The notes under the pieces: model-generated
What the model was told of the DNA's origin: nothing
Database searches by the model: none
What the model saw: only the letters and a program-made list of their open reading frames with translations
Made by a program: the position numbers and the translations under genes
Part shown: positions 4,964 to 24,841 of the stretch, piece after piece
How the letters are laid out: every line of letters starts with the position of its first letter
How positions within the stretch are numbered: position 1 is the stretch's first letter
Source: Tahibacter caeni
GTDB taxonomy: Bacteria; Pseudomonadota; Gammaproteobacteria; Xanthomonadales; Rhodanobacteraceae
Assembly (NCBI RefSeq): GCF_024609805.1
Contig: NZ_JANFVR010000014.1
Location: 1 to 35,183, forward strand
Length of the DNA stretch: 35,183 nt
Direction of reading: 5' to 3'

Positions 4964-5359
4964 TTGAAGTAGCTGCCGAAATTAGTGGCCTGTTCGAGGA
5001 ACAGAGTTTGGTTGTATATTTCAGTGCGTCGTAGATGCAAAAAGCGGCGCTCGATCGCTGGGTCTTGGCTTAGGGGGAACCTGTGGGTCGCCGCTGTTGA
5101 TAGTGCAAATATTATTTCGATTCCAGCGAGAAGCATCACTTGGGCAATGTTTTGTATCCTTCGATAACCAATCTCTCCGTGCTTAACAAGTGATTAAGTT
5201 GATAAGAGAAGGGGGCACGGCATTGCGAACAACAGCGTAACTCGCCAGTGCTTCTTCGTATTTCCCTCGTTTAAATTTTCTCTAGACTTGGAGAATGCGT
5301 GAAAAAAGCTTCACTTCATGACTGGTCGGGTCGTGCTGAATTGATATCGGGTTTAATCT
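4964..5359. other. non-coding AT-rich stretch at the island's right edge
   Basis: No convincing gene is present; the only open frames are short, with poor codon bias. The stretch must contain the promoter of the leftward SIR2 gene. Several AT-rich hexamers exist, but no -35/-10 pair with proper spacing stood out. GC rises sharply to the right of this region. Confidence 0.5.
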
Positions 5360-5999
5360 CATGCATGAAAGCGTAAGCGGCTTGGCCCCAATCGACTGAA
5401 GATCGCTGTGATGCCAGGTTTCATTGCCACCGCGGTTACGCTCCAGCCGGTACGATAGCGACGATGCCGGCTTCGCCGTCTCCCGCCATGCGATCAGCTG
5501 CGGCTTCGCATCTGGGTAGAACTCGTAGAACTCCGGCTGCGCTGTGGCTGGTGAGTTGTGTGATCTTGAGTCTGTTCTTGTCGTCGGCGACGTAGGCGAA
5601 CAACGAGGCGTTGGTCGTGCCGACGACGAAGCCGTTCGCGTCGTTGAGTTTTCCGCCGACGTTGAACATTTTGTAGGCACGTCGCTGTCGTTCCACGTAG
5701 TCGCACGGGCCAGGGAAGTTGTTGCGGAATTCGCCATCGGCGAGAGTGTCGATGTCGGTGATGATCAGGCCTTCTTCGCTATCCGTGATGAAGGCGTAGC
5801 GATGGATCAGGTGCGTCGGTTGTTTATTGCTGGCCGGAACCTTTCTTGCAGCCTCGTTCCGGGACAACGGCAAGGGCGGGATGTTGGCGGGTTCGGCGCA
5901 ATTCGCGCTATCCGGCGCCGCAGTGGCGTCTTGGTCTACGGTTCCAATGACGTAGGTCTGCTCATGAAAGCCAACGTCGTACATCGAAACGTCAGTCAT
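5360..5999 (-). pseudogene. decayed partial copy of the decahaem LVIVD protein (C-terminal part)
   Basis: Two minus-strand frames together match the C-terminal propeller of the protein at 6714-10616. One frame gives Y-A-F-I-T-D-S-E-E-G-L-I-I-T-D-I-D-T-L-A-D-G-E-F-R-N-N-F. The other then gives L-A-R-A-T-T-W-N-D. The first resumes with F-N-V-G-G-K-L-N-D-A-N and A-S-L-F-A-Y-V-A-D. The second resumes with P-Q-L-I-A-W-R-E-T-A-K-P. At least three frameshifts are therefore needed. About 125-130 residues of the intact protein, between W-N-D and the F-N-x-G-G-K segment, are missing. No haem motif is present. It is a degraded duplicate, probably left by a tandem duplication or recombination near the island border, and it should make no functional product. 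Confidence 0.85.
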
Positions 6000-6580: not shown

Positions 6581-6642
6581 GGGGTTGCGAATGTGGTCAG
6601 TCGTGGAGCTGCCTATACAGTTGTGTTGCGGCGGTGCGGCTG

Positions 6643-6687
6643 AAACCCATTCCCACCCATGCCCTCCCCTTGAAGGGGAGGGTTTTT
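6643..6687. repeat. palindromic repeat, copy 1
   Basis: This copy carries the lead-in AACCCATTCCCACCCATG followed by a palindrome at 6662-6682. The palindrome has arms CCCTCCCCTT and the reverse complement around one central G, and five T residues follow. The same unit recurs at 10599-10641 and, inverted, at 10741-10786. For plus-strand transcripts, stem plus T-run could act as a terminator; this was not established. Confidence 0.85.
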
Positions 6688-6713: not shown

Positions 6714-9700
6714 TCAAGGACGGCGCTTTGACTCGGTGGTTTTGGGGCGCGCTGTGTTCGCGGGTACCGCATCGCTGACCCCCCAAGGCTTCCCATCCGC
6801 ATCGAGATACAACCTCTGCATCTCCTCCAACGTAAACGGCCTGGACCCGATACGCCCAAAGATCGCAATCTGATGCCCGGTCTCGTCGACACCGCGATCG
6901 CGCTCCAGCCCACGCGATAGCGACAACGCCGGCTTGGCCGTCTCGCGCCACGCAATCAGCTGCGGCTTCGGATCGGGGCTGAACCCATAGAACTTCGGCT
7001 GCGACTCGGGGCTGGTCAGCTGGATCACCTTGAGCCCGTTCTTGCCGTCGGCGACGTAGGCGAACAGCGAGGCATTCGTGGTGCCGACGACGACGTCGTT
7101 CGCGTCGTTGAGCTTCCCGCCGGCGTTGAACATCTCGTAGAGCTGCGGCTGTTCGGGCCGCGTGATGTCGACTATGGCGAGGCCTTCGGCGCCGTTGGCG
7201 ATGTAGGCGTAGGTGCGGGCCAGGTGCAGCTTGCGCGGGTCGGACAGGCGCAGGAATGCGCCCGGCACTTCGCGCGCGTCGGCGGGCTTGGTCACGTCGA
7301 TGACGTGCAGGCCGTCGGCGGCGGTGACGAAGGCGTAGCGGAACTGGACCTGCACGGCGCGCGCGTTGGCGATCGGTACGGTCGCGAGCACGCGCGGCTT
7401 CAGCGGGTCGTCCATGTCGAGCACGACGACGCCGTTGTTCGTGACGACGTAGAACGTGGTGCCGGCGATCGCGAGGTGCTTGGCGCCGGTCAGCACGCCG
7501 CCGTCGTTCCACGTGGCGGCGCGGGTCAGGAAGTTGTTGCGGAATTCGCCGTCGGCCAGCGTATCGATGTCGGTGACAATCAGGCCTTCTTCGGCGTCGG
7601 TGATGAACGCGTATTTGTAGATCGCGTGCATCGCCTGTTCCTGGTTGGCCTCGATCTTGCGCGCGTTCTGGTTGCGGGCGTAGGAGACGGGCTGGGTCGT
7701 GGCGAGCTGTACGCAGGTCGCGTTCTTGCTCGCGATGTGCGTGTCCTGGCCCAGGGGCGAGGAGGGCGCCGTGATGATGCGTTCGGAGAAGCCCTTGTTG
7801 GCGATGCTGGCGACGTCGTAGACGCGCATGCCCTTGGTGCCTTCGGCCACGTAGAGGTATTCGCCGCGTAGCTGGATGCATTGCGCGGTGCCGGCGTTGT
7901 GTTCGTAGGCTTCCTGCAGGCGCTGGCCGGCCTTCTGGTGGTTGGCGTACCAGTCGGGGTAGGCGTAGCGCTGCAGATAACTGCCGATGACGGCCTGCGG
8001 CTCGTCCCATTCGGTCACGCGGATGGCGCCGATTTCGCCGTCGCCGCCGACCCAGGCATTGAAGCCGACGAAGTCGACGAAGCGCGTGCCGAGCAGCAAC
8101 GTTTGAGCCAGTATCGCGTTGTTGTCGTTGTCCTTGGACAGGTGGCAGTCGGTGCAGGTCTTGGTTTCGGTCTTGCGCTCGGTGTGCGGGTAGTGCGGCG
8201 CGAAGGCCTGCGAGGAGTAGCCGGCCGCGGACACGGGCGGCTGCTGGATGTAGATGCGTTCGCGGTTGATGTTGGTGGAGGACAGCACGAGCGCCGAGGA
8301 CGAGCGCACCGGCGCGACCTTGTGGTCCTTGATGCCGCCGTGCACGCCGAGGAAGAACATGTCGTCGCGCGCGACCTGCGGGTTGTAGGTCGCGAAGTTG
8401 CGCGTGATGCCGCCTTCGTACTTGTGCCGCTCGGTCTGCGCGTTGGCCTGGATCGGCAGGTGGCAGCCGCCGCAGCTCGTGGTCCACGAGGTGTGGCAGG
8501 AATAGCAGAGCATCTTGTCTTCGCCGTGCGCGCGCTGGTCGAGCGGCACGTCGGCGCCGAAGGTCTGCTTGGCGGTGTCGCGCGACATCGCATGCGCGCG
8601 CGTGGCCTTCTCGTTGTAGTTCGGCGAGGCCGGGTTGGACACGTCCTTGGTCAGGCTCATGGTCCATTCCAGGCCCGGCGTCACGGCCGAGCGCTGGATC
8701 AGCTGGTCGCCGACCCATTCGAAGCGCTTCTTGCCGTCGGGGTTGCGGATCAGCGCGAGGTCATGGCCGGCCTTCGGTGCGGCCGGGCCCGAGGTCTTCA
8801 AGGTCGGCAACGCATCGACGGTGCCGTGGCAGTCCTGGCACTGGATCTCCACACCGCCCATGACTTCGGCCTTCAGATAGCCGTTGCCGTGCGCATCTTG
8901 AGAGAAATGGCAGTCCACGCACTGCATGCCGACGTCGACGTGGATCGACGACATATGCACGGCTTTCTTCCATTTCTCCGGATCGTTGTCGTCGATCTTT
9001 TCCTGCTTCGCGTCGAGCAGGTTGCCCTTGCGGTCGCGCGCGTAGATGCCGCGGAAGTTCCAGCCGTGGCCGTGGTAGTCGGCGAACTGGGTGTCCTTGA
9101 GCTGCGGATTGAGCAGCGATACGTCTTTCAGGAAATCGACGTCGCGCCACTTGCCGCGGATCGCCGCTTCCTCGGGATTGCGCGCGAGGGTCTTGAAGAT
9201 TTCCTCGTCGTCCGGGTAGTGCTGCTTCTCCGGCCACATGAACGGTGCGTCGGACTCGTAGTCCCACATGGTGTAGCCGAGCATGGAGTTGATGAACATG
9301 TTCGGCTGATGCATGTGGCAGATCATGCATTGGCTGGTCGGGATCTGCCGCGTGAACTCGTGCTTGATCGGGTGGCCGGATTCGCCTTTCGGAATCGTCG
9401 GATCGACCTGCGCGCTCATGCCCATGTTGCCGTACTTCGCATGGATGGCCGAATGGCGCGGGTCGCGGTCGTTCGCGTAGATCACGTGGCACGCGGAGCA
9501 GCCCGAGGAGCGGAAGTCGCCGGGGTTGTCGTTGGTGCCGAGGAACCAGGTGAACGGATCGTTCAAGCGCGTCTTGTGGATGTTGAGTACCGGGATCGCG
9601 ACGCGGCTGCCGGTGCCGGGACCGCGGTTGGACTGCTTGAGGTCCGGGCGGCCCGGTTCTTCCAGGCGCTGGATCGCGCCGGTTTCGCTCGGCACGCCGA

Positions 9701-10616
9701 TTTCGGGGAACAGGTTGCCGATGTTGCGGCCGCCGCGCTCGAACACGCGGAACACGTCGGCCGGCGGCACGGTTTCCCAGGCTGGCATCGGGTTGATCTT
9801 CGGCAGGATGCCGGCGGCGTCCATGGCCGCGTCGTTCTCGATGCCGTTGGACACGGCGGCGGGCTTGCCGTCGCGCGTATAGGCTTCGCCGAGGATGGAA
9901 TGCTTGTACGGCAGGATGCCGTTGTTGTACGCGGCCGCGCCCCAGAACATCGCGGCGTTGGCCATCAGGCTCTTTTCGGCCTGCTGGATCAGCGGCAGAT
10001 GGCAGGCGCCGCAGCTCTCGCGTGCGATGCGCAGGTCGCCGGGGTTGATGAAGCGCGCGAACTCGGGGGCTTCCTGCGTCAGATGCGTATAGCTGCGCGG
10101 CGGGTTCGCGCTGTTCGGCCAGCGCTCGGGGTATTGCGGCAGCACGTGCGCCTTGTCCATCGCGGCGATGTAGCCGGCGCTGTAGTTGCGCGGTGCGCCG
10201 CCGCCGGCGGTGTCGGAGTAGGGGATGTCGGCGTGCTTGTCGCCGTTCTTGCCGGGCGCGGCGCTTTCGGCGACGGCGGGGTTGCTGCCGAACACGGTCG
10301 GGTCGCCGCCGTGGCAGTCGGTACAGCCGAGCACGACGGCCGGGCTCGCGTGCATGGTCTTGCGGTCGGACGCGGTATGGCAGGACACGCAGCCAGCGGA
10401 TTTCGCATCGGCCTGTTCCCAGGTCTGGAAGGCCGGCGCGGGCGGGGCGGTGACGTAGGTGCGTTCGACTTTTTCGGGTTCGCCGGAGGCGTGGGTGAGG
10501 GTGGGGCTCAGGAGTGCGAGGAGCGTGGCTGTTGCTATGGCCAGGAATGAGCGATGCGAGGACGGTTTGTCGGCGCGCTTTGTCTTGAAGTCAAAGGCAA
10601 ACCCATCCCCACCCAT
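6714..10616 (-). CDS. secreted decahaem c-type cytochrome with C-terminal LVIVD propeller
   Basis: Numbered from ATG 10616 (1300 residues). A signal peptide covers about residues 14-44 (hydrophobic F-L-A-I-A-T-A-T-L-L-A-L-L, then T-H-A-S). Ten CXXCH haem-c motifs follow at about residues 76, 98, 202, 373, 430, 566, 593, 704, 715 and 821: CVSCH, CTDCH, CGACH, CSACH, CMICH, CVDCH, CQDCH, CYSCH, CGGCH, CTDCH. From about 915 there are six LVIVD-type beta-propeller repeats, for example Y-L-Y-V-A-E-G-T-K-G-M-R-V-Y-D-V and Y-A-Y-I-A-N-G-A-E-G-L-A-I-V-D-I. It is probably exported and haem-loaded in the periplasm, and may be surface-exposed with the adjacent barrel as an electron carrier. Starts at ATG 10868 or GTG 10877 are also open and carry an excellent ribosome site, but they place about 84-87 repeat-derived residues before the signal peptide. 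Confidence 0.9.
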   Translation of the reverse strand: MGGDGFAFDFKTKRADKPSSHRSFLAIATATLLALLSPTLTHASGEPEKVERTYVTAPPAPAFQTWEQADAKSAGCVSCHTASDRKTMHASPAVVLGCTDCHGGDPTVFGSNPAVAESAAPGKNGDKHADIPYSDTAGGGAPRNYSAGYIAAMDKAHVLPQYPERWPNSANPPRSYTHLTQEAPEFARFINPGDLRIARESCGACHLPLIQQAEKSLMANAAMFWGAAAYNNGILPYKHSILGEAYTRDGKPAAVSNGIENDAAMDAAGILPKINPMPAWETVPPADVFRVFERGGRNIGNLFPEIGVPSETGAIQRLEEPGRPDLKQSNRGPGTGSRVAIPVLNIHKTRLNDPFTWFLGTNDNPGDFRSSGCSACHVIYANDRDPRHSAIHAKYGNMGMSAQVDPTIPKGESGHPIKHEFTRQIPTSQCMICHMHQPNMFINSMLGYTMWDYESDAPFMWPEKQHYPDDEEIFKTLARNPEEAAIRGKWRDVDFLKDVSLLNPQLKDTQFADYHGHGWNFRGIYARDRKGNLLDAKQEKIDDNDPEKWKKAVHMSSIHVDVGMQCVDCHFSQDAHGNGYLKAEVMGGVEIQCQDCHGTVDALPTLKTSGPAAPKAGHDLALIRNPDGKKRFEWVGDQLIQRSAVTPGLEWTMSLTKDVSNPASPNYNEKATRAHAMSRDTAKQTFGADVPLDQRAHGEDKMLCYSCHTSWTTSCGGCHLPIQANAQTERHKYEGGITRNFATYNPQVARDDMFFLGVHGGIKDHKVAPVRSSSALVLSSTNINRERIYIQQPPVSAAGYSSQAFAPHYPHTERKTETKTCTDCHLSKDNDNNAILAQTLLLGTRFVDFVGFNAWVGGDGEIGAIRVTEWDEPQAVIGSYLQRYAYPDWYANHQKAGQRLQEAYEHNAGTAQCIQLRGEYLYVAEGTKGMRVYDVASIANKGFSERIITAPSSPLGQDTHIASKNATCVQLATTQPVSYARNQNARKIEANQEQAMHAIYKYAFITDAEEGLIVTDIDTLADGEFRNNFLTRAATWNDGGVLTGAKHLAIAGTTFYVVTNNGVVVLDMDDPLKPRVLATVPIANARAVQVQFRYAFVTAADGLHVIDVTKPADAREVPGAFLRLSDPRKLHLARTYAYIANGAEGLAIVDITRPEQPQLYEMFNAGGKLNDANDVVVGTTNASLFAYVADGKNGLKVIQLTSPESQPKFYGFSPDPKPQLIAWRETAKPALSLSRGLERDRGVDETGHQIAIFGRIGSRPFTLEEMQRLYLDADGKPWGVSDAVPANTARPKTTESKRRP

Positions 10617-10641
10617 GCCCTCCCCTTGAAGGGGAGGGTTT
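10599..10641. repeat. palindromic repeat, copy 2, overlapping the cytochrome start
   Basis: The palindrome at 10618-10638 has the same arms as copy 1. On the minus strand its right arm reads AAGGGGAGGGC and runs directly into ATG at 10616, so the repeat supplies a Shine-Dalgarno-like sequence and a start codon. It also encodes the in-frame peptide N-P-P-L-Q-G-E-G-M-G-G-D-G if translation begins further upstream. Confidence 0.85.
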
Positions 10642-10740
10642 GCAATGGCGCGCTTCGGCTGAAGGTACGGAACCGATGCGGCGCGCTTCGCTTCTAGTGG
10701 CCGGCTCGACGGGTTTCGCCACGCCCCGAGAGAAAAGCGT

Positions 10741-10786
10741 GAAAAACCCTCCCCTTCAAGGGGAGGGCATGGGTGGGGATGGGTTT
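10741..10786. repeat. palindromic repeat, copy 3 (inverted relative to copy 2)
   Basis: The palindrome at 10747-10767 is followed by GCATGGGTGGGGATGGGTTT, the reverse complement of the lead-in of copies 1 and 2. Copies 2 and 3 face each other across about 105 bp, so the whole interval could fold into one large hairpin. Read leftward in the cytochrome frame it encodes P-H-P-C-P-P-L-E-G-E-G with no stop codon. Confidence 0.85.
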
Positions 10787-10867
10787 CGCCGTCGCTCACC
10801 ACCACCCGCCGAGACGCAGCAACATCACGCCCACCCGTGATCGAAAAAATCCCGACCGTCTTCCCCA

Positions 10868-14749: not shown

Positions 14750-15331
14750 CGCAGCATCCTCCGAGTGGGCAGGACGCGAGGCGCCTGCTCAGTGCTCATC
14801 AGTGTTTCCCCGCGGCGATGGTAACCCAGGACGCCGCCGGTTTGACGCCGTTTCCCCTGCGTTATCAGCGATGTCAGCTTTCCTGCTCGTCTTGCGTATC
14901 TGGTCCGAATGCGCGGCGGACCGTCCGCCGCCGGCAGGCCGGCGCAGGACGCCCGATGCAGGGCCCGGGCCCGGCCACGGCAGCGCCGCCGTCGATGCTG
15001 CGGCGCACCCATTCGCCGGCGCTTGGCAGCGGCCGCGCGCATTGCCATCGCCTTCACGCCGCCTGCGCCGCAATGGCCCGGCTCCGCCGCCGCGGAGCCC
15101 AGTGCGGCCCCGTCCAGCGGCCTATGGACCTCGTCGCCGGCTTTGTTATGGTCGGGAGGTCCGCCGGTCCGAAAGCTCCGCACAGGAACGGGAAGGATCC
15201 TCGCCGGTGCTCGTACCGGCCGGATCGCGGATGACGAAGGGTGCGAAGCACGTCCGGCCTGCGGCCCGGCGCGTCTTCTTGCGTTGCGGAAATTAACTAG
15301 TCCACTTTTGTATTCCGGGGGTATATCGATC
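14750..15331. other. divergent intergenic region, about 580 bp
   Basis: This lies between the leftward lipoprotein gene and the rightward subtilase gene. No gene with convincing start, codon bias and motif was found, although GC-rich open frames run through it. It should contain the two divergent promoters; a well-spaced -35/-10 pair was not identified. Confidence 0.5.
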
Positions 15332-18300
15332 ATGCGAACCACTGTATTGCGCCAGCGGACCGCGCTCGTCGCGGCGATCGCTGCCGTCGTGTTCAGCGCC
15401 GGCGCGTCGGCCGGCCATTTCGGCGAGGCGGAGAACTTCGCCTCGAGCGCGCCGCGCGCGGCCAGCGACAGCGCCGCCCGCTCGCGCTTCATCATCGGGT
15501 TCAAGGACGCGCCGCTGGCCCTGGCCGCCGGCATTCCGCGCCAGGAGAACCGGCGCATCGCGCTCGAGTCGATGCCGGCGCAGAGCTACGTCGCGCAGCT
15601 CGCGGCGCGCCAGGACCAGTTCCTCGCCGAGGCCTCGCAGCTGCTCGGCCGCGACGTGCCGGCGCTGATGCGCTTCCAGCACGCCTACAACGGCGTCGTG
15701 CTCGAACTGACCGACGACGAAGCCGGCCTGCTGCGCGCGCATCCGTCCGTCGTCCGCGTCGAGGCCGAGCAGCTGCTGCCGCTCAACACCGACCGCGGTC
15801 CGACCATGATCAACGCGCCGGCCGTCTGGGACGGCAGCGGCACGCTCGGCAATCTCGCGACCAAGGGCGAGGGCGTGGTCATCGGCGTCATCGACAGCGG
15901 CCTCAATGTCGCCAGCGACGCCTACGCGGCGATGGGCAGCGACGGCTACGCGCACGTCAACCCGCTCGGACCGGGCAGCTACCTCGGCTGGTGCAATCCG
16001 TCCAATCCGAACCACGTCGCCGGCCGCGACGTCTGCAACGACAAGCTGATCGGCGGCTGGGACTTCATGGACGCGCTGGCGGCCTCGCCGAACGTCGAGG
16101 CGCGCGGCTTCGAGGACGAGGGCGGCCATGGCTCGCACACCTCCAGCACTGCGGCCGGCAACGCACGGCAGGTCACGTTCAACGGCATCACGCGCAACGT
16201 CTCGGGTGTCGCGCCGCACGCCAACCTCGTGATCTACGACGCCTGCTACACGAGCTCCAGCGGCGGCCTGTGCCCGACCACGGCCACCACGGCCTCGGCC
16301 AACCAGGCCGTCGCCGACGGCGTCGTCGACGTGCTGAGCTTCTCGATCGGCGGCGGCACCTCGCCGTGGACCGACACGACCTCGCAGGCCTTCCTGGCCG
16401 CGCAGAACGCCGGCATCATCGTTTCCGCATCGGCCGGCAACTCGGGCCCGACGCCGGCCACGCTCGGCCACGTCGAGCCCTGGACGATCACGGTCGGCGG
16501 CACCATGCACGACCGCGTGTTCGGCTTCAATTTCAACCTGACCGGCCCGGGCTCGCCGCCGGCCAACACGCAGAACATCACCGTGCGTCCGGGCGCCGCG
16601 CCGATCGCGTCGGCCACGCTGACCGCGCCGATCATTCCGAGCCCGAACTTCGCCAACGGCGCGACCGACGGCTGCACGGCGTTTCCGGCCGACACGTTCC
16701 GGCGCGGCGGCATCTCGGGCATCGCGGTGCTGCACCTGGACGCGGTGACCAGCAGCTGCGCGAGCGGCGCGCGGCGCACGGCGGCGCTGAACGCGGGCGC
16801 GGCCGGCGTGATCTTCGTCGACGTCGCGCCGCTGAACCTCGGCGCGAGCGGCACGAGCTATTCCATGCTGATGCGCGACTGGAACAACGTCGCCGCGCAC
16901 ATCGCGACCGATCCGTCCAACGCGAACGCGTCGATCGCCGTGCCGCTGAACGTCGGTCCCGGCGCGCCGGATGCGGTCTACTACTCGACCTCGCGCGGCC
17001 CGAGCCCGATCAGCCTGCTCAAGCCCGACCTCGCCGCGCCCGGCGTGGAGATCCTCGCGGCCTACACGCGCTGGGTCGCCGCGGCGCCGGCGCCGTTCGG
17101 CGGCGCGGTGAACACGGCGAACAACAACATCGCCAACGTGCTGAGCGGCACGTCGATGGCGGCGCCGCACGTCGCCGGCGCGGCCGCGCTGCTGCGCGCG
17201 CTGAACCGCTCGTGGACCCCGGCGCAGGTGAAGTCGGCGCTGACGACGACGGCCAGGCCCGACCTCATGGAAGTCGACGGCGTGACGCCGACGACGCCGT
17301 TCGCGACCGGCGCCGGCCGCATCGACGTGGCCCGCGCGAGCAAGGCCGGCCTGATCCTCGACGAAAGCGCCGCGAACTACGTAGCGGCCAATCCGGCCGC
17401 CGGCGGCAACCCGTCGCAGCTGAACATCGCGAGCTTCCAGAACCTGTCCTGCGTCGGCACCTGCACGTTCCCGCGCACGTTCAAGAGCACGCGCACGGCG
17501 CCGGTGACCTGGACCGCGACCGTCAGCGGCTTCCCGGCCGGCGCGGTGACCCTGGCCCCGGCTTCGTTCACCGTGGCCAATGCGGGCACGCAGGCGGTCA
17601 CGTTGTCGGCAGATTCGCTGCAGCTGCCCGACGGCCAGACCGTGTTCGGCGAAGTCGTGCTGACGCCGAGCAATCCGGCGATCCCGGTCTCGCGCATGCC
17701 GGTCGCGCTGCGCAAGGCGCTGCCGGAAATCGACGTGTCGCCGACCTCGCTGAGCGCGAGCGTGCCGGCCGGCCAGTCGGTCACGCGCAACCTGACCGTG
17801 GCCAACCTCGGCAACCCGAGCGTGGTCTGGGACATCGACACGTCCGGCACGGCGCAGTCCAACCTGCTGCGCCAGGCCTTCGACGGCGTCCGCGGCAATG
17901 CGTCGGACTTCTTCATCGGGTCCAACGGCGGCTTCTACCAGGCGGAAGACTTCATTTCGCCGGACAACGCCACCTTGCGCAGCATCGACGTCGAAGGCTT
18001 CATGACCGGCACCGGCGGCACCCTGCAGGCCACGGCCACGCAGATCACGTTCAAGCTGTACGCCGATGCGGCCGGCATGCCGGCCGGCCATCCGGAAGCC
18101 GGCACGGGCGGCGAGCTGTATTCGTGCACGCGCACGCCGAGCGGCGTGAACAGCGCGGGCCTGACGTTCCGTTCCACCGACGGCGCGCTGTTCGGCCTCA
18201 ACGTCAACGACGCCGCGGCGGCGGGCTGCCCGGCGCCGCCGGCGCTGACGGCCGGCGTGCGCTACTGGGCGCTGGCCTATCCGACCGTGCCCGGCACGAG

Positions 18301-18706
18301 CTCGTCGCGCCGCTGGATCCTCGGCCGCGCGACGACGCACAACGGCCTGCCCGGCATGTCGCTGACCTCGACCGCGCTCGGCGGTACGGCGACCTGGACC
18401 GCGCTCGCGCCGGTGGCCGGTCCGCCGGCGTCGCTGGAATCGCTCGCGGTCAGCGTCACGACCAACGTGACCTGCGGCGCGCCGTGGCTCAGCGCATCGC
18501 CGAACGCCGGCAACCTCGGTGTCGGCGGTTCGGACACGGCGGTCGTCACGGCCGATGCGTCCGCGCTCGCGATCGGCAACTACCGCGGCTTCGTCTGCGT
18601 CGACAGCAACGGCACCGATGCGGATGAACCCAAGACCGCCGTGCTGTTCTCGCTCGACGTGAACGACCGCATCTTCGCCAGCGGCTTCGAAGCGCCGGCG
18701 CCGTAG
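15332..18706 (+). CDS. secreted subtilisin-like serine protease (S8) with PA-type insert
   Basis: The start ATG at 15332 gives a signal peptide (MRTTVLRQRTALVAAIAAVV, cleavage near A-S-A/G). The open frame further upstream has no such feature. The 1124-residue protein has an inhibitor-I9-like propeptide (from about residue 50, R-F-I-I-G-F-K-D). Its S8 domain has catalytic Asp188 (V-I-D-S-G), His266 (G-H-G-S-H) and Ser608 (G-T-S-M-A-A-P-H-V-A-G). Between His and Ser lies a PA-like insert, common in large secreted subtilases. The C-terminal half is beta-rich (fibronectin-III/immunoglobulin-like) and ends R-I-F-A-S-G-F-E-A-P-A-P, resembling a short C-terminal tail found on exported proteins of this bacterial group (my recollection, not checked). 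It digests proteins outside the cell. It is monocistronic, with a strong terminator downstream. Confidence 0.95.
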   Translation: MRTTVLRQRTALVAAIAAVVFSAGASAGHFGEAENFASSAPRAASDSAARSRFIIGFKDAPLALAAGIPRQENRRIALESMPAQSYVAQLAARQDQFLAEASQLLGRDVPALMRFQHAYNGVVLELTDDEAGLLRAHPSVVRVEAEQLLPLNTDRGPTMINAPAVWDGSGTLGNLATKGEGVVIGVIDSGLNVASDAYAAMGSDGYAHVNPLGPGSYLGWCNPSNPNHVAGRDVCNDKLIGGWDFMDALAASPNVEARGFEDEGGHGSHTSSTAAGNARQVTFNGITRNVSGVAPHANLVIYDACYTSSSGGLCPTTATTASANQAVADGVVDVLSFSIGGGTSPWTDTTSQAFLAAQNAGIIVSASAGNSGPTPATLGHVEPWTITVGGTMHDRVFGFNFNLTGPGSPPANTQNITVRPGAAPIASATLTAPIIPSPNFANGATDGCTAFPADTFRRGGISGIAVLHLDAVTSSCASGARRTAALNAGAAGVIFVDVAPLNLGASGTSYSMLMRDWNNVAAHIATDPSNANASIAVPLNVGPGAPDAVYYSTSRGPSPISLLKPDLAAPGVEILAAYTRWVAAAPAPFGGAVNTANNNIANVLSGTSMAAPHVAGAAALLRALNRSWTPAQVKSALTTTARPDLMEVDGVTPTTPFATGAGRIDVARASKAGLILDESAANYVAANPAAGGNPSQLNIASFQNLSCVGTCTFPRTFKSTRTAPVTWTATVSGFPAGAVTLAPASFTVANAGTQAVTLSADSLQLPDGQTVFGEVVLTPSNPAIPVSRMPVALRKALPEIDVSPTSLSASVPAGQSVTRNLTVANLGNPSVVWDIDTSGTAQSNLLRQAFDGVRGNASDFFIGSNGGFYQAEDFISPDNATLRSIDVEGFMTGTGGTLQATATQITFKLYADAAGMPAGHPEAGTGGELYSCTRTPSGVNSAGLTFRSTDGALFGLNVNDAAAAGCPAPPALTAGVRYWALAYPTVPGTSSSRRWILGRATTHNGLPGMSLTSTALGGTATWTALAPVAGPPASLESLAVSVTTNVTCGAPWLSASPNAGNLGVGGSDTAVVTADASALAIGNYRGFVCVDSNGTDADEPKTAVLFSLDVNDRIFASGFEAPAP

Positions 18707-19084: not shown

Positions 19085-20767
19085 TCAAAGCTTGTTCAAG
19101 CTCAACGTCGTCGACTGATGGTAGCGATGGCAGTCCACGCAGGTGCTCGCGACCTTGCTGCCGCCGTTGGCGCCGGCATGGCACTGGCGGCAGTTCGCGA
19201 TGTCGGGGATCAGCAGGTCGCTGGCGCTCTTGGATTCGGCGGCCTTGTGGCAGTCCTTGCAGTCCATCGTCGAGTGCTTGGCGTGCGTGAACTTCGCTTC
19301 GCCGTACCAGATGCCCGAGACGCGCACGGGCGCGATCTGCCAGCCCGATCCCGGTGCGGCGCCCGCGGCGGCCGGCCGCGTGACCGTGTGGCAGGTCACG
19401 CAGGCGCGGCCGGTGAAGACGCTGTCGGCGACCTGGCGCGACTTGTCGCGGGCCCAGCTCAGCGCCTCGATGGTCTGCTGCTGGCTCAGCGGCGGGTCGC
19501 CGGGACGGCGTCGCTGCTGCACGAAGCCCGGCGCGCTGGTTTCGGTGTAGCCGCCTTCGAGCGCGCGCCTGGCGTAGTAGTCGTCGAGCATGTAGACGAC
19601 CTCGGCGACCTTCGCGTGCGGCACCTGGCGGTCGGGCGCGAACGTGTCGAAGCCGAGCGTATGGCAGTCATGGCACATGCTCTCGAAGTCGACCGGCTTC
19701 ATCGCGAGGCCGCCGGCATCGGGCTGGTGGCAGCTCGCGCAGGTCAGCGTGCGGCGGCCCGACGGCGCGTTGAGATCGGGCTTCAGATGCTTGGCATGGT
19801 CGAACTTCAGGCCTGAGTTTTCCTTGAGCCCGGCGGTCAGGGTCGTCAGCTGCGGCGCGAAGCGGCCGTTCGCGTCCCAGGCCGGCAGGCGCACGCGGAA
19901 TTCCGGATGGGTCTTGCCGAAGTCGCGCGCGTCGGCGAGCGCGCTCGCGTTCTGCGTGCGCGCCGCCAGGTCGGTATGGCAGTCGGCGCAGAGCTTCTGG
20001 TCGGTGTTGACCATGCCGTCGAGGCCGAGGTGATCCTGATGGCAGCTGCCGCAGCGCGCCTCGCCGAGCTGGGGCAGGTTGAAGCGCGCCGGGTCCGCGT
20101 GCGCGGCCATCTTCGTATGGCAGCTCGTGCAGGCCGTGTCGCGCACGGTCAGGAACGGCGTCCGGTGGCATTGCTTGCAGTCGTCGCCGAAGAAGCGGTG
20201 CGCCGCGTCGAGCGGGCCCGGATTCCAGCTCGCCGTCGTCGGCAGGCCGACGTGGCCCATGAACTTGCCGAGGGCCGGCACGAAATGCGTCGCGGCCGGC
20301 AGCAGCAGGCCGAAGCCGAGCACGAGCAGGAACAGGATCCACGACGGCGCGCGCTTGCCGAGCCAGGTTTCCTTGAGCGAGGTCGGCTTTGCACGCTTGG
20401 CCTTGGCGGCCTCCTGTTCGGTCTTGTCGAGCGTGGAGATCTCGACCGCGGCCTCGAAATCGCGCGGCGGATCGAGCAGCACGATGCGCGTGGAGGCGAT
20501 CTCGACGACCGCGCCGGCGCCGACGTTGGTCGAGTAGGTCAGCTCGCCGTTGACGCGGATGCCGGCCAGGATCAGCGACTCGACCGTGTAGCGGCCCGGG
20601 CTGGTCGAGGTCACGCGCGCATGGTTCAGCGCGGCGCGGATGTCCGACAGGAAGATCGCCTGGTCGGCGGCGCGGCCGATCGACAGCACGTCGCCGAAGT
20701 GCACGTCCTCCTCGTACGAGACGGCGCCCTTGCCCTGCTTGAGTACCCGACGGATCAGCCAGCGCAT
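19085..20767 (-). CDS. FHA-like domain fused to a membrane-anchored decahaem cytochrome
   Basis: This protein has 560 residues. The N-terminal 100 resemble a forkhead-associated domain: F-G-D-V-L-S-I-G-R (24-32), S-D-I-R-A-A-L-N-H-A-R-V (41-52) and R-V-N-G-E (71-75). FHA domains bind phosphothreonine peptides. One transmembrane helix follows at about 141-161 (W-I-L-F-L-L-V-L-G-F-G-L-L-L). The rest is predicted to be periplasmic, with ten CXXCH motifs: CKQCH (from 197), CTSCH, CGSCH, CADCH, CASCH, CHDCH, CVTCH, CKDCH, CRQCH and CVDCH. It should accept electrons from the membrane cytochrome b encoded 15 bp upstream and pass them into the periplasm. The fusion links a cytoplasmic signalling-type domain to an electron-transfer chain. 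The ATG at 20767 was used; the FHA assignment is by motif only. Confidence 0.88.
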   Translation of the reverse strand: MRWLIRRVLKQGKGAVSYEEDVHFGDVLSIGRAADQAIFLSDIRAALNHARVTSTSPGRYTVESLILAGIRVNGELTYSTNVGAGAVVEIASTRIVLLDPPRDFEAAVEISTLDKTEQEAAKAKRAKPTSLKETWLGKRAPSWILFLLVLGFGLLLPAATHFVPALGKFMGHVGLPTTASWNPGPLDAAHRFFGDDCKQCHRTPFLTVRDTACTSCHTKMAAHADPARFNLPQLGEARCGSCHQDHLGLDGMVNTDQKLCADCHTDLAARTQNASALADARDFGKTHPEFRVRLPAWDANGRFAPQLTTLTAGLKENSGLKFDHAKHLKPDLNAPSGRRTLTCASCHQPDAGGLAMKPVDFESMCHDCHTLGFDTFAPDRQVPHAKVAEVVYMLDDYYARRALEGGYTETSAPGFVQQRRRPGDPPLSQQQTIEALSWARDKSRQVADSVFTGRACVTCHTVTRPAAAGAAPGSGWQIAPVRVSGIWYGEAKFTHAKHSTMDCKDCHKAAESKSASDLLIPDIANCRQCHAGANGGSKVASTCVDCHRYHQSTTLSLNKL

Positions 20768-20782
20768 GCGTTCGGTCTCCGC

Positions 20783-21691
20783 CTACCAGTAGAAAAACAC
20801 GGACACGACGTGGGCGAACAGGGCGGCCACGGTCGCGAAGGACAGCGGCACGTGGATGTACAGCCAGACCTCCATGAGCGCCTGGTACTGGATGTCGCGC
20901 GCGACGCGCGAGGCCAGCACCTTCTTGCGCGAGAGCAGGTCGATGAGCTTGCGCAGCGCCTCGGCCTGGCGGTCGTTCGTGCCGCTGGCGAGGAAGTCGA
21001 CCATCGCGAAGATGGTCTGGCCGGACTTCGCGCCGCCGGCCGCGGCCTGCGATTTCTCGCGCGCCTCCAGCGCCGCGCGGATGCCGGCCAGCGCCGCGTC
21101 GGAATCGTCGCGCGCGCGCAGCTGGGCCAGCACGCCGCCGCCCAGGCGCGTGTTCTGGATCGAACGCAGCACGATGCCGTGGACCTTGGGGTCGATGCCG
21201 TCGGCCAGCGCGAGCGCGTTCTGGTCGAGCTCGCCGATTTCCTCGAGCATCGCGCTGCGCGTCGCGCTCTCGCGGTTGCGCGTCATCAGGGTCGGGTAGC
21301 GCAGATAGCAGTAGACCCCGAAGAAGCCCGAGACGATCACGAGCAGCATCAGCACGAGAAAGAAGGTGTGCAGGTTCCAGCCGACCTGGAAGCCCGCGTG
21401 CAGCAGCGCGATCAGGATCAGCGCCGTGCCGAGGTAGACGTGCGCCGACAGCCAGCCGCGCAGGTTCGAGGTGCCCGAGTACGAACGCTTGCGGATGCCG
21501 AAGAACATCAGCCAGAGGATCAGCAGCCCCGCGATCGTGCCGAGGGTGTAGCCGAGCCAGGTGCCGCCGTTCGGCGGCACGGCCGGCGAGTGCAGCGCGT
21601 AGGCGAGCAGCGAGACCAGCGACAGCGCGAGCGCTATCCAGAGCCAGCGCGATCCCGCGTGATTGAGTATGGATTCGTGGCGCGCGTTCAT
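20783..21691 (-). CDS. cytochrome-b-like dihaem membrane protein
   Basis: This 302-residue protein has five hydrophobic segments, near 17-34, 46-65, 82-100, 107-130 and 275-300. Two helices each carry a His pair 14 residues apart: His84/His98 (H-V-Y-L-G-T-A-L-I-L-I-A-L-L-H) and His280/His294 (H-V-P-L-S-F-A-T-V-A-A-L-F-A-H). This is the spacing used in membrane cytochromes b to hold two b haems between two helices. A charged soluble loop of about 140 residues separates the last two helices. The gene is 15 bp upstream of the FHA-decahaem gene, so it probably moves electrons from quinol or the FeS/FAD partner across the membrane to the decahaem domain. The family is not named with certainty; it resembles cytochrome b561 or ferric-reductase-like bundles. 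Confidence 0.8.
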   Translation of the reverse strand: MNARHESILNHAGSRWLWIALALSLVSLLAYALHSPAVPPNGGTWLGYTLGTIAGLLILWLMFFGIRKRSYSGTSNLRGWLSAHVYLGTALILIALLHAGFQVGWNLHTFFLVLMLLVIVSGFFGVYCYLRYPTLMTRNRESATRSAMLEEIGELDQNALALADGIDPKVHGIVLRSIQNTRLGGGVLAQLRARDDSDAALAGIRAALEAREKSQAAAGGAKSGQTIFAMVDFLASGTNDRQAEALRKLIDLLSRKKVLASRVARDIQYQALMEVWLYIHVPLSFATVAALFAHVVSVFFYW

Positions 21692-21771
21692 GCGCTGTCC
21701 CTGTGCGATCGGGCGTTGAAGGTCGCGTACTGCGATGGCTTTGGGTGGCGGTATCGCGGCGGCGCATCGAT

Positions 21772-21864
21772 CCTCTCCCCCAAGCTTGCTTGGGTGAGCG
21801 GGGTGCCGTTCGGAACCGAAGGTTCTGGCGCCCCCGGACGTTCCGACTGCCGTCCGGGGAGAGG
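21772..21864. repeat. multi-stem palindromic element
   Basis: Outer arms CCTCTCCCC (21772-21780) and GGGGAGAGG (21856-21864) enclose two further stems: CCCAAGC/GCTTGGG (21779-21794, overlapping the outer arm by two bases) and CCGGACG/CGTCCGG (21834-21857). It fills most of the 268-bp gap between the zinc-ribbon gene and the cytochrome b gene. Confidence 0.7.
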
Positions 21865-21959
21865 GAGCGTTGTGTCTGTCTTTCCGATCTGGCCCGGTGG
21901 AACAACGGGCCGGACTGCGCCTGGCCGCAGCGACGGGCCGGACGGCCGAGGCGGCGGGC

Positions 21960-22406
21960 TCACGCCTCGTCCTCCGGAAACCGGCGCGCGAGCCGCGCGC
22001 GGACGCGGCGCAGGCCGTAGATGCCGATGCCGAGAAACGTCACGGCGCCGGTTGCCGTTGCCGCGACCCATTTCCAGTAGCGAGCCGGTTCCTCGTGCCG
22101 CAGGATCACGACGGGAGGGCCCTTGCCGCCGTGGAACACGGCGCCGAAGCCGAGCTGCGCGACGAGGACGAGCAACAGGAATCCGCCGGCGATGCAGCAG
22201 GTCCAATAGCGGTCGAGAGGCCGTTGCGCCGCCTGTTCGTCGCGTTCGCGCAGCAGGCGCCGCGTCTGTCGCTTGCGCAGCAGCACCGGATCGACGGACG
22301 GTGCCGGATAGAACGTGCGTCCGCACTGCGTGCAGGCACGCCGGCTCCAGTCGGGCGCCGTCTGTTCGGTCTGGCAATGCGGGCAGGTCGCGCGCGCGTC
22401 GCTCAT
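21960..22406 (-). CDS. zinc-ribbon membrane protein
   Basis: This 148-residue protein has two CXXC pairs near the N-terminus (C-P-H-C at 8-11 and C-T-Q-C at 25-28) that form a probable zinc ribbon. A charged stretch follows, then two transmembrane helices (about 69-91 and 111-131). It begins 20 bp after the oxidoreductase gene on the same strand, so co-transcription is likely. No catalytic motif or haem site is visible. A structural, assembly or docking role for the redox module is inferred from position only. Confidence 0.75.
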   Translation of the reverse strand: MSDARATCPHCQTEQTAPDWSRRACTQCGRTFYPAPSVDPVLLRKRQTRRLLRERDEQAAQRPLDRYWTCCIAGGFLLLVLVAQLGFGAVFHGGKGPPVVILRHEEPARYWKWVAATATGAVTFLGIGIYGLRRVRARLARRFPEDEA

Positions 22407-22426
22407 CGGGAGCCGCTCCGCGCACG

Positions 22427-24841
22427 TCAGCGCCGGCTCTGCGCATACGCCGGAAATTCCTCCGGCGAGATGCGGATGGCCGCGCCGGTCGGGCAGGCGC
22501 GCACGCAGGCGGGACCGCCTTTTTCATCCTTGCACATGTCGCATTTGACGGCCTTCTTTTCCTTGGGCTCCTTGCTCTTCTTCTTCGCGTCGTAGGGCGC
22601 TTCGCCCGGGCCCGGCCCGAGGCCGAACAGCAGCCAGCTCAGCAGGCCCGGCTTCTTCGGCGGCTTGGTCGCCATGTGGATGACGCCGTAGGGGCAGTTG
22701 CGTTCGCAGTTGCCGCAGCCGATGCAGTTGTCGGCAATGTAGACCTCGCCGTTCGGCGCGCGGCGCAGCGCGTCGGGCGGGCAATCCTTCATGCAGTGCG
22801 GATGCTCGCAGTGCCGGCACGAGGTCGGCACGTGCACGCTCGCATAGGTCGGGCCGGCCTCGCGGTCCAGGCGCGAGGTGCCGCCGTGGGTCTCGGCGCA
22901 GGCCTTCTCGCAGTTGTCGCAGCGCACGCAGAGCGACTCGTCGATCAGCAGGATGTCGGTCGCTTCGCCGGCGCCCTGGGCGAGCAGGAACTGGATGATG
23001 TCGCCGCCGGCCGGCAGCGCCTGCATGGCCAGGTTCGACGCGGCGCGCTGGCGGTATTCGGCCTGCAGGCGCAGCTTGAGCACGGGCATGCGGTTGACGA
23101 GCTTCTTGAAGCTCTCGCCGTCCAGGCGCACGGTCTCGGTCGCGATCGCCGCGCGCGCCGTGGCCGAACGGCGCGACTCGCCGAGCAGCGCCATCTCGCC
23201 GACGTAGTTGCCGGCCGGCACGTAGGACAGCACGACTTCCTTGCCGGCGATGTTGCGCGAGATCGTCAGCGAGCCCACGCGCACGAGGTGCAGGCAGTCG
23301 CCGACCTCGCCTTCGTTGAACAGGATGTCGCCGGCGGCGAACTTCTGCAGGGTGGCGCCGGCGACCATGTCCTTGAGCTGCGCGGCCGTGGCTTCGGGCG
23401 CGAAGCGCGACTGGATCGCGCGCAGGATGAACACCTCGTCGATCTCGCGCTTGACCGCGGCGACCGAATTGATCAGCCGGTTCATCGAGCGCCGCGGCGT
23501 CTCGATCAGCACGCAGCCGTTGCCGGCCGTGACCGTGGCCGAGCGGCGCCGGCCCGAGATCAGGCCCATCTCGCCGAAGAACTCGCCGCGGCCGAGCGTG
23601 ATGAACTGCTTGCCGTCTTCGTCGAGCGCGATGCGCACTTCGCCCTCGACGATGGAATAGAAGCTGTTGGTGTAGTCGTTGCGGCGGAACACGATATCGC
23701 CGGGCTTGGGCGTGCGCAGGTCCGAGTCGAGCATGAACTCGCGCAGCTGCAGCGGCGTGATGTGCGACAGCACGCGCACGTTCTGCTGGATGCGCGCGAG
23801 CGTGTCGTCGACGGAGCGGAAGCCCGGCATCGCGCCGAGCTTGGCCTTCAGCAGCGGCTCGTCGGCCGGCTCCACGCGCTCGCCGCGGATGTACTCGACG
23901 ACTTCGTAGCCCTGGTTCATCGCCTGCTTGATCAGCGGATAACCGCCGAGCGCGCCGACGATGTAGAGGCCCTTGACGTTGGATTCGTACTGCGGGCTGA
24001 TGGCCGGCACGGCGGCCGGGTCCTTGCTCGGAAACGTCACGCCGCAGGCTTCGACGAAGCTGCGCGGCGCGGTCGCGCCGAGGCGGCCGATCACGCGGTC
24101 GATCAGCAACTGGGCCTTGCCGTTGGGGGTGGACAGGATCAGGCGGCCCTTCTTGCGGCCGACGCTGAGCGCGTCGACGCGTTCGGGCGCGGCGTTGTAG
24201 TAGCACTCGATCGCGCCGTCCTCGATGGCCTTGAGGATGGCCGCCTCGTTGCCTTTCTTGGCGCGGGCGAATTCGTCGCGGCGATTGACGATGACGACGT
24301 TGTTCTGTTTCGCGAGCGCGACCGCGTTCTCGATCGCCGCATCGCCGGCGCCGACGACGACGATGGTCTCGCCTTCGTATTCGTCCGGATCGTCGAGCTG
24401 GTACTGCACGAACGGCAGGTCTTCGCCGGGCACGCCGAGCTTGCGGATGTTGCCCTGCAGGCCGATGCCGAGCACGACGAATTGCGCCTCGATCGTCGCG
24501 CCGTTGGCGCACTTGAGCTCGAAGCTGCCGTCCTCGCGCTTCTTTATCGCGCTGACTTCGTGGCCGTGGCGCACGTTGATCTTGAGCCGCGCGGCGGCTT
24601 CGTCCCAGGCGCCGAGGATGCTCTCGCGCGAGCCGGCCTTGAACGGCACGGGCGAACGCAGCGGCAGTATCCCTGGCTCGTCCATGACGAACTTGCCCTT
24701 CTGGTAGCGGTAGATCGTGTTGGACAGGTGCGGCTCGGCTTCGAGCAGCACGTGCGACTCGCCGCGCTCGGCCGCGCGGGCGGCGGCCGACAGGCCGCCC
24801 GGACCGGAACCGACGATGGCTATCCGGAAACGCTCGCTCAT
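22427..24841 (-). CDS. FAD/NAD(P) oxidoreductase fused to two cyclic-nucleotide-binding domains and a polyferredoxin
   Basis: The ATG at 24841 follows GAGGAAGGA, giving 804 residues; the frame stays open 120 bp upstream without motifs. The N-terminus is a thioredoxin-reductase-like two-dinucleotide-domain flavoprotein (G-S-G-P-G-G at 11-16; second Rossmann motif V-V-G-A-G-D-A-A near 165) without the CXXC disulfide. Two cNMP-binding domains follow (about 350-460 and 470-590), each with a phosphate cassette: F-G-E-M-G-L-I-S-G-R-R-R-S-A-T and V-G-E-M-A-L-L-G-E-S-R-R-S-A-T. The C-terminus has four Cys groups typical of a 4x[4Fe-4S] electron-transfer subunit: CVRCDNCEKAC, CRHCEHPHCMKDC, CIGCGNCERNC and CDMC...CVRAC. 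Electrons could pass from NAD(P)H through FAD and FeS clusters to the cytochrome b, with cNMP control. It heads the operon. Confidence 0.92.
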   Translation of the reverse strand: MSERFRIAIVGSGPGGLSAAARAAERGESHVLLEAEPHLSNTIYRYQKGKFVMDEPGILPLRSPVPFKAGSRESILGAWDEAAARLKINVRHGHEVSAIKKREDGSFELKCANGATIEAQFVVLGIGLQGNIRKLGVPGEDLPFVQYQLDDPDEYEGETIVVVGAGDAAIENAVALAKQNNVVIVNRRDEFARAKKGNEAAILKAIEDGAIECYYNAAPERVDALSVGRKKGRLILSTPNGKAQLLIDRVIGRLGATAPRSFVEACGVTFPSKDPAAVPAISPQYESNVKGLYIVGALGGYPLIKQAMNQGYEVVEYIRGERVEPADEPLLKAKLGAMPGFRSVDDTLARIQQNVRVLSHITPLQLREFMLDSDLRTPKPGDIVFRRNDYTNSFYSIVEGEVRIALDEDGKQFITLGRGEFFGEMGLISGRRRSATVTAGNGCVLIETPRRSMNRLINSVAAVKREIDEVFILRAIQSRFAPEATAAQLKDMVAGATLQKFAAGDILFNEGEVGDCLHLVRVGSLTISRNIAGKEVVLSYVPAGNYVGEMALLGESRRSATARAAIATETVRLDGESFKKLVNRMPVLKLRLQAEYRQRAASNLAMQALPAGGDIIQFLLAQGAGEATDILLIDESLCVRCDNCEKACAETHGGTSRLDREAGPTYASVHVPTSCRHCEHPHCMKDCPPDALRRAPNGEVYIADNCIGCGNCERNCPYGVIHMATKPPKKPGLLSWLLFGLGPGPGEAPYDAKKKSKEPKEKKAVKCDMCKDEKGGPACVRACPTGAAIRISPEEFPAYAQSRR

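Follow-up and report, generated by a model that had tools for sequence, protein, structure and literature searches.

A conserved gene cluster of Tahibacter caeni and other Pseudomonadota that may encode a cyclic-nucleotide-gated electron chain across the cell envelope

The window analyzed here is the whole stretch of 35,183 nucleotides of Tahibacter caeni (contig NZ_JANFVR010000014.1, positions 1 to 35,183, forward strand), and the genes of concern are collected in Table 1. A first-pass annotation had placed four genes on the minus strand between 19085 and 24841, encoding a flavoprotein, a zinc-ribbon membrane protein, a cytochrome b and a decahaem protein with an FHA-like domain, and all four open reading frames are found there and had been read correctly. 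The limit set at 19085 was wrong, since the cluster runs on to about 6714. Past an inserted peptidase gene the minus strand resumes with three members of the same cluster that had been overlooked: an HbpS-like lipoprotein, a barrel of the outer membrane, and a second decahaem cytochrome, which ends in an LVIVD propeller. The peptidase ORF can be regarded as an insertion because two relatives (L013 and L014) have no such ORF at the corresponding place and show a shorter distance between the genes on either side.

Table 1. Genes of the cluster and the ORF inserted into it (positions in the window; aa, amino acids).
Feature	Position	Strand	Basis
Core gene 1, cytoplasmic flavoprotein, 804 aa	22427..24841	-	Pfam; invariant residues in 80 sequences; PDB matches
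Zn-ribbon protein, 148 aa, accessory	21960..22406	-	Four CxxC-type Cys by eye; hydrophobic segments
Core gene 2, di-haem cytochrome b, 302 aa	20783..21691	-	Conserved His; PCC3/PCC4 inner-membrane-protein signature
Core gene 3, FHA/decahaem protein, 560 aa	19085..20767	-	Pfam; conserved residues; structure model; Foldseek
Inserted ORF, reads as subtilisin-like peptidase, outside the system	14909..18706	+	Missing here in L013 and L014
Outer-part gene 4, lipoprotein (LTAC lipobox), 684 aa	12695..14749	-	PF03928, E 1.2e-20; three HbpS-like stretches
Outer-part gene 5, outer-membrane beta-barrel, 604 aa	10879..12693	-	AlphaFold model, pTM 0.69
Outer-part gene 6, exported decahaem cytochrome c, start codon uncertain	6714..10616	-	10 CxxCH; C-terminal LVIVD propeller

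The flavoprotein has an FAD/NAD(P) part (residues ~5-311), two cNMP-binding domains (~379-458 and ~490-600) and four [4Fe-4S] sites (Cys 638-783), much as the first-pass annotation had described it. This layout is borne out by Pfam (Pyr_redox_3 with E 2.7e-30, cNMP_binding in two stretches with E 2.2e-39, and several Fer4 models) and by matches in the PDB to PKA/CRP, ferredoxin-NADP reductase and formate-hydrogenlyase/HycB chains. Across the 80 genome loci that we compared (~56-98% identity, with 98% to the metagenome-assembled genome SCN 69-320 and 92% to T. harae and T. aquaticus), the 16 cluster cysteines, arranged as four groups of four, are invariant (80/80). After the nucleotide fold there follows the stretch NRRDEFARAK, which we take to resemble the NADPH motif of thioredoxin reductase; its N186 and R187 are kept in 80/80 sequences and R188 in 48/80, and NADPH is the probable nucleotide of this protein. 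Assignment to the thioredoxin/bacillithiol disulfide reductases was rejected, with no CxxC before residue 638, a cysteine at position 15 in only 5/80 sequences, and a score of 114 bits against a cut-off of 340 for TIGR04018.

The cytochrome b has five hydrophobic regions, the sequence SGFFG at 121, and the motif WX3HX13H at both 80 and 276. The two His pairs 14 residues apart that had been noted at first reading prove to be invariant or nearly so, with H84/H98 kept in 70/70 and H280/H294 in 68/70 homologues. In two genomes the flavoprotein and the cytochrome b form a single ORF (G131, 1120 aa; G248, 1125 aa) in which both His pairs are kept. A sequence search against the PDB gave no relatives, and no ferric-reductase transmembrane domain was found in Pfam at E up to 1.

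In the third core protein, a cytoplasmic FHA domain (~27-105) is followed by one membrane helix (138-167), with positive charges just before it, and by ten CxxCH motifs on the periplasmic side, all ten of which are kept in 66/69 homologues. Pfam reports FHA at 21.6 bits, just above its cut-off of 20.7, and Cytochrome_C7. The FHA fold is also found by profile matches in the PDB to GarA (E 2.4e-9), OdhI and Rv1747, and by Foldseek, which aligns the FHA part of the model (pLDDT ~90) to GarA/OdhI with E ~3e-6; the earlier description of a decahaem protein with a single helix and an intracellular FHA domain was therefore upheld. The model as a whole has a mean pLDDT of 69; apart from the FHA domain and some short stretches its quality is too low to show how the haems pack.

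The presence of cNMP and FHA domains had led to the proposal that the chain is switched both by a second messenger and by phosphorylation, and the two halves of this proposal fared differently. In the FHA domain, G31 and R32 are kept in 69/69 sequences and H49 in 60/69, while two usual phosphothreonine contacts are replaced in most of the family: the Ser position (A46) is Ala in 45/69, and the Asn position (A68) is Ala in 39, Ser in 10 and Gly in 8 of 69. A phosphorylation switch is thus unlikely given the loss of two standard contacts, and the role of phosphothreonine reader was rejected for this domain; it most likely docks the cytochrome to the flavoprotein and cytochrome b. The cNMP folds, on the other hand, are real by Pfam, and their binding residues are intact, with the cassettes G423 E424 R431-433 and G548 E549 R558 each present in 80/80 sequences. 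The residue after the last cassette Arg is mostly Ser or Thr, and so cAMP and cGMP are not distinguishable as ligands. One might suppose that the cNMP and FHA domains serve purely in structure or assembly and that the chain is constitutive, as the altered FHA contacts would allow. We find this quite improbable, since relic domains would not need to keep Glu and Arg in both cNMP pockets in all 80 sequences, down to ~56% identity, and since a nucleotide cyclase adjoins the operon in five loci.

In these five loci (L083:2533-7989, L038, L065, L074, L087) the enzyme is a CHASE2-adenylate/guanylate cyclase, encoded upstream of the flavoprotein gene on the same strand, and in L065, L074, L083 and L087 it is followed by genes for a TPR protein and a FecR-domain protein. 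It is a possible source of the ligand there; the window itself has no CHASE2-nucleotide cyclase.

The lipoprotein and the second decahaem protein were placed in the envelope by eye, from their signal sequences, the latter putatively at or beyond the outer membrane. Its Pfam matches are LVIVD (PF08309, E 1.5e-19) and Cytochrome_C7, and a sequence search against the PDB gave no relatives. The barrel has a signal peptide and a C-terminal Tyr, and matches no Pfam family. Its predicted model resembles the AlgE/OprD class of 18-strand barrels, with AlgE (Z 25.5, rmsd 3.4, 362 residues aligned) and also OprD-family barrels as the PDB matches. When the large barrels of the MtrB type were considered, the matches listed (Foldseek/VIA) were of AlgE/OprD/OmpF type, with MtrB not among them. 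The barrel may hold a cytochrome, as MtrB does, or it may pass something else.

The first-pass annotation had also proposed a check of co-occurrence, expecting its four genes to be conserved together. We ran this check, and the gene families are kept together with the exception of the zinc-ribbon gene; the cNMP and FHA folds, whose failure was also to count against the proposal, stood up as well. Among the 57 loci in which 7.9 kb or more lie downstream of the flavoprotein gene (loci being cut at contig ends), the cytochrome b and FHA-decahaem genes follow in 55, and the three form a conserved triad. The zinc-ribbon protein, for which membrane helices are predicted and no Pfam family lies above cut-off, has homologues only in two loci of the Tahibacter group among all those compared (L003, 70%, and L007, 27%), and its gene is missing even from a relative with a 98%-identical flavoprotein. 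Being absent from nearly all loci, it is ruled out as a core member and is a local addition to the cluster. Downstream of the flavoprotein gene, the HbpS-like lipoprotein is found in 48/57 loci, the barrel in 49/57 and the decahaem-LVIVD protein in 44/57, the last figure being an undercount because the loci end.

The same association is seen at the level of the phylum, the gene set being common to many bacteria from soil and water. In a draw of 398 Pseudomonadota genomes, searched with a first filter that may miss distant members, the flavoprotein and the FHA-decahaem protein occur in an identical set of 15 (Fisher p 1.7e-27, kinship ignored), and the barrel occurs in 12, all inside this set (p 1.6e-20, kinship likewise ignored). 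The second decahaem protein is present in 11 of the 15. These positive genomes span seven families, one of which (f55) contributes seven. The link between triad and barrel is more than adjacency, since in three genomes (G307, G440, G487) the two are kept apart, either by >600 kb or by being on different contigs. Another three (G131, G248, G099) have the triad with neither barrel nor second decahaem protein, so that in these the chain may go no further than the periplasm and would need another acceptor.

Other arrangements of these genes are also seen. Five loci, mostly of Betaproteobacteria (L067, L081, L088, L091, L092), have the order lipoprotein, barrel, LVIVD cytochrome, C554-type cytochrome and flavoprotein, with no cytochrome b or FHA protein within the flanks examined; the inner partner is presumably rearranged or different in these. 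In L043, L060, L063, L071 and L075 the flavoprotein or triad adjoins another outer set with a multihaem cytochrome, C554-type cytochromes, and an ORF without Pfam match at the barrel position. The inner module seems to be interchangeable between outer conduits.

That these components form one redox chain, from NAD(P)H through FAD, FeS clusters and b haems to c haems, as the gene order had first suggested, is supported by the domains and the conserved cofactor ligands. Further evidence for the chain comes from the conserved gene set, the fusion of flavoprotein and cytochrome b, and the phyletic linkage of the barrel. In the reading that we favor, with a probability of roughly 0.5, this is a cNMP-gated, outward trans-envelope electron chain. 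NADPH would reduce the FAD of the flavoprotein in the cytoplasm, and electrons would pass through the four [4Fe-4S] clusters to the two-haem cytochrome b, across the inner membrane, and on to the ten periplasmic c-haems of the FHA-anchored cytochrome. From there they would reach the decahaem-LVIVD cytochrome, aided by the barrel and the HbpS-like lipoprotein, and finally an extracellular acceptor, which may be a metal oxide, a humic quinone or O2. The cNMP domains, placed between the flavin and FeS parts, could act as an allosteric gate on the drain of NADPH. NADPH has a potential of about -0.32 V, so that outward flow would be downhill; inward flow to NAD(P)+ would not. Counting against this reading are the genomes that have the triad alone, the betaproteobacterial loci that lack cytochrome b and FHA protein, the porin-like form of the barrel, and the inward direction proposed for the related conduits PCC3 and PCC4.

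The closest relatives of this system are PCC3 and PCC4, two putative conduits of iron oxidisers that are proposed to run inward, to quinones, and whose inner-membrane protein of ~300 aa, of unknown function, has five helices, SGxxG and two WX3HX13H motifs (He et al. 2017, PMC5566968). The cytochrome b encoded here has exactly this signature, and its profile retrieves one PCC3-like locus (L150, with the cytochrome b, 24- and 27-haem proteins and a large ORF at the porin position) and two PCC4-like loci (L149 and L151). In the latter two the partner Fe-S protein has cNMP domains and keeps the Glu/Arg cassette intact in one of them, and a separate NAD-binding/2Fe-2S protein is encoded nearby. Electron entry through a cNMP-FeS protein therefore seems general to PCC4-like loci and the present system, which differs in its FAD fusion and its FHA anchor. 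The signature and the retrieved loci likewise speak for a chain that runs inward, from extracellular Fe(II) or Mn(II) through the outer cytochrome and the cytochrome b to the quinone pool or, uphill, to NAD(P)+, as was proposed for PCC3 and PCC4. We consider this possible but doubtful: a cytoplasmic flavoprotein that takes NAD(P)H, has four FeS clusters and in two genomes is one protein with the cytochrome b points to a nicotinamide partner and not only a quinone; electrons from Fe(II) would have to climb steeply to reach NAD(P)+ at neutral pH, with no coupling subunit seen; and many hosts are, judged by name, ordinary heterotrophs.

In composition the system shares with PCC4 the di-haem b protein, an adjoining Fe-S (PF13247) protein (present here upstream of the inner-membrane protein), a 10-haem cytochrome and, in L149 and L151, the cNMP domains of the Fe-S protein. 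PCC4 differs in having its NAD/flavin part as separate NAD_binding_1/Fer2 proteins, whereas the FAD domain is here fused to the cNMP-FeS part, and in having three periplasmic cytochromes of 4, 5 and 10 haems and none extracellular, in place of the inner 10-haem and the 10-haem LVIVD proteins. An FHA domain on the 10-haem protein, and the barrel, HbpS-like and LVIVD-decahaem genes, further set the present system apart. With PCC3 (PMC5566968, PMC10734462) it has in common the same kind of cytochrome b and inner and outer multihaem cytochromes. Both also have an outer barrel, which may or may not be homologous, as the barrel profile gave no match in a PCC3-like genome (G242). The periplasmic and extracellular cytochromes of PCC3 have median haem numbers of 21 and 34, with ~22-39 aa per haem, whereas those found here have 10 and 10 haems (560 aa and ~1300 aa, or ~56 and ~130 aa per haem), as do their homologues. 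The haem numbers and the composition of the system place it in neither PCC3 nor PCC4. The main texts that we found on PCC3/PCC4-type systems do not mention cyclic nucleotides. A published table lists, with no remark on partners or function, a “Forkhead-associated protein” of 10 haems that occurs in 27 members of the Gallionellaceae (cluster 403; PMC10734462, Table 1); judged by its label alone, it probably belongs to the same family as the FHA-decahaem protein.

The Ext cluster of Geobacter (PMC5877670) similarly brings together a porin, a cytochrome b and multihaem cytochromes, and the second decahaem protein is distantly like ExtM, matching model NF040943 with E 5.7e-22 and 77.8 bits against a cut-off of 800. 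This likeness to a selenite/tellurite cluster, together with HbpS-like domains named after haem degradation and binding, could indicate a dedicated trans-envelope reductase for detoxification or assimilation, tuned by cNMP and acting on a metal or metalloid oxyanion, or on haem or ferric iron via the lipoprotein. Such a specialized role seems unlikely to us, as ExtI, ExtP and other Ext components are unmatched by their own NCBIfam models and the similarity to ExtN and to the Rieske protein ExtO is weak (21-22 bits); what resemblance there is may reflect nothing beyond common multihaem folds. The Ext cluster, for its part, has no reported cNMP or FHA proteins. Membership in it was ruled out, with ExtM below cut-off and no ExtI or ExtP match. 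The MtrCAB, MtoAB and PioAB systems share the concept of a multihaem conduit through the outer membrane, but the decahaem proteins score far under the DmsE/MtrA and OmcA/MtrC models and the barrel lacks a Pfam family. The FHA protein reaches 24.4 bits against a cut-off of 192.2 for TIGR03508 (MtrA/MtoA, DmsE family) and 14 bits against 209.3 for TIGR03507 (OmcA/MtrC), which the outer cytochrome does not match, and both assignments were rejected.

The open literature searched, with subscription papers, supplements and preprints lying outside the search, holds no account of this system. The earlier statement that no described system has this set is partly wrong: it may hold for the set itself, but it passed over the PCC3/PCC4 signature of the cytochrome b and the cNMP-FeS protein of PCC4-like loci. 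The best reading is of an undescribed system, akin to PCC3 and PCC4 as a variant, that is most likely a cNMP-gated exporter of electrons from NADPH to the outside. A working analogy is offered by the eukaryotic NADPH oxidases and ferric reductases, in which electrons pass from NADPH to FAD, to two b haems held by His pairs 14 apart, and to the outside; the present system differs in lacking a match to the ferric-reductase transmembrane domain and in adding FeS clusters and c-haems. More tentatively, one can then imagine a bacterial trans-envelope NADPH oxidase, gated by a second messenger, whose electrons would end perhaps on minerals or on O2, in the latter case yielding extracellular superoxide, a notion that would extend to the PCC4-like conduits with the same cNMP-FeS protein.

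If the outward chain is right, ~4% of the sampled Pseudomonadota species (15/398), many of them ordinary aerobic heterotrophs, have an unnamed electron conduit that is missed by current markers of extracellular electron transfer. The cNMP-regulated FeS (flavo)protein would fill the place of the inner partner that the PCC3/PCC4 cytochrome b has lacked, and the quinone-linked model proposed for these conduits would become nicotinamide-linked. It would also be a candidate for the poorly explained extracellular superoxide or metal reduction by heterotrophs, the enzymes producing bacterial extracellular superoxide being mostly unknown (PMC6414704). Were cNMP to control an electron-transfer chain directly, respiration would gain a new mode of regulation and, if the trans-envelope NADPH oxidase is real, a respiratory-type chain would be switched by a cyclic nucleotide at its electron-input subunit and not via transcription.

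Some features at the margins of the cluster may also be recorded. Repeats of ~45-50 bases lie at 6634-6686, 10596-10655 and 10743-10793 of the window, and the same repeats occur at several places in L013, including the gap where the zinc-ribbon gene is missing; they are REP-like and seem to mark insertion points of the cluster. The end of the cluster looks rearranged: part of the second decahaem protein's LVIVD tail is present again as a decayed copy (5357-5993, minus strand, matching residues 951-1045, 1172-1219 and 1220-1283), and beyond it lies an ORF resembling an IS transposase (1474-2445). Within a stretch of lower G+C (0.50-0.52), an ORF of 831 aa (2468-4963, minus strand) with a GAGFS-type N-terminus is matched weakly to Avs5 by PADLOC (E 2e-4) and is a possible SIR2/STAND-type defence gene on an island.
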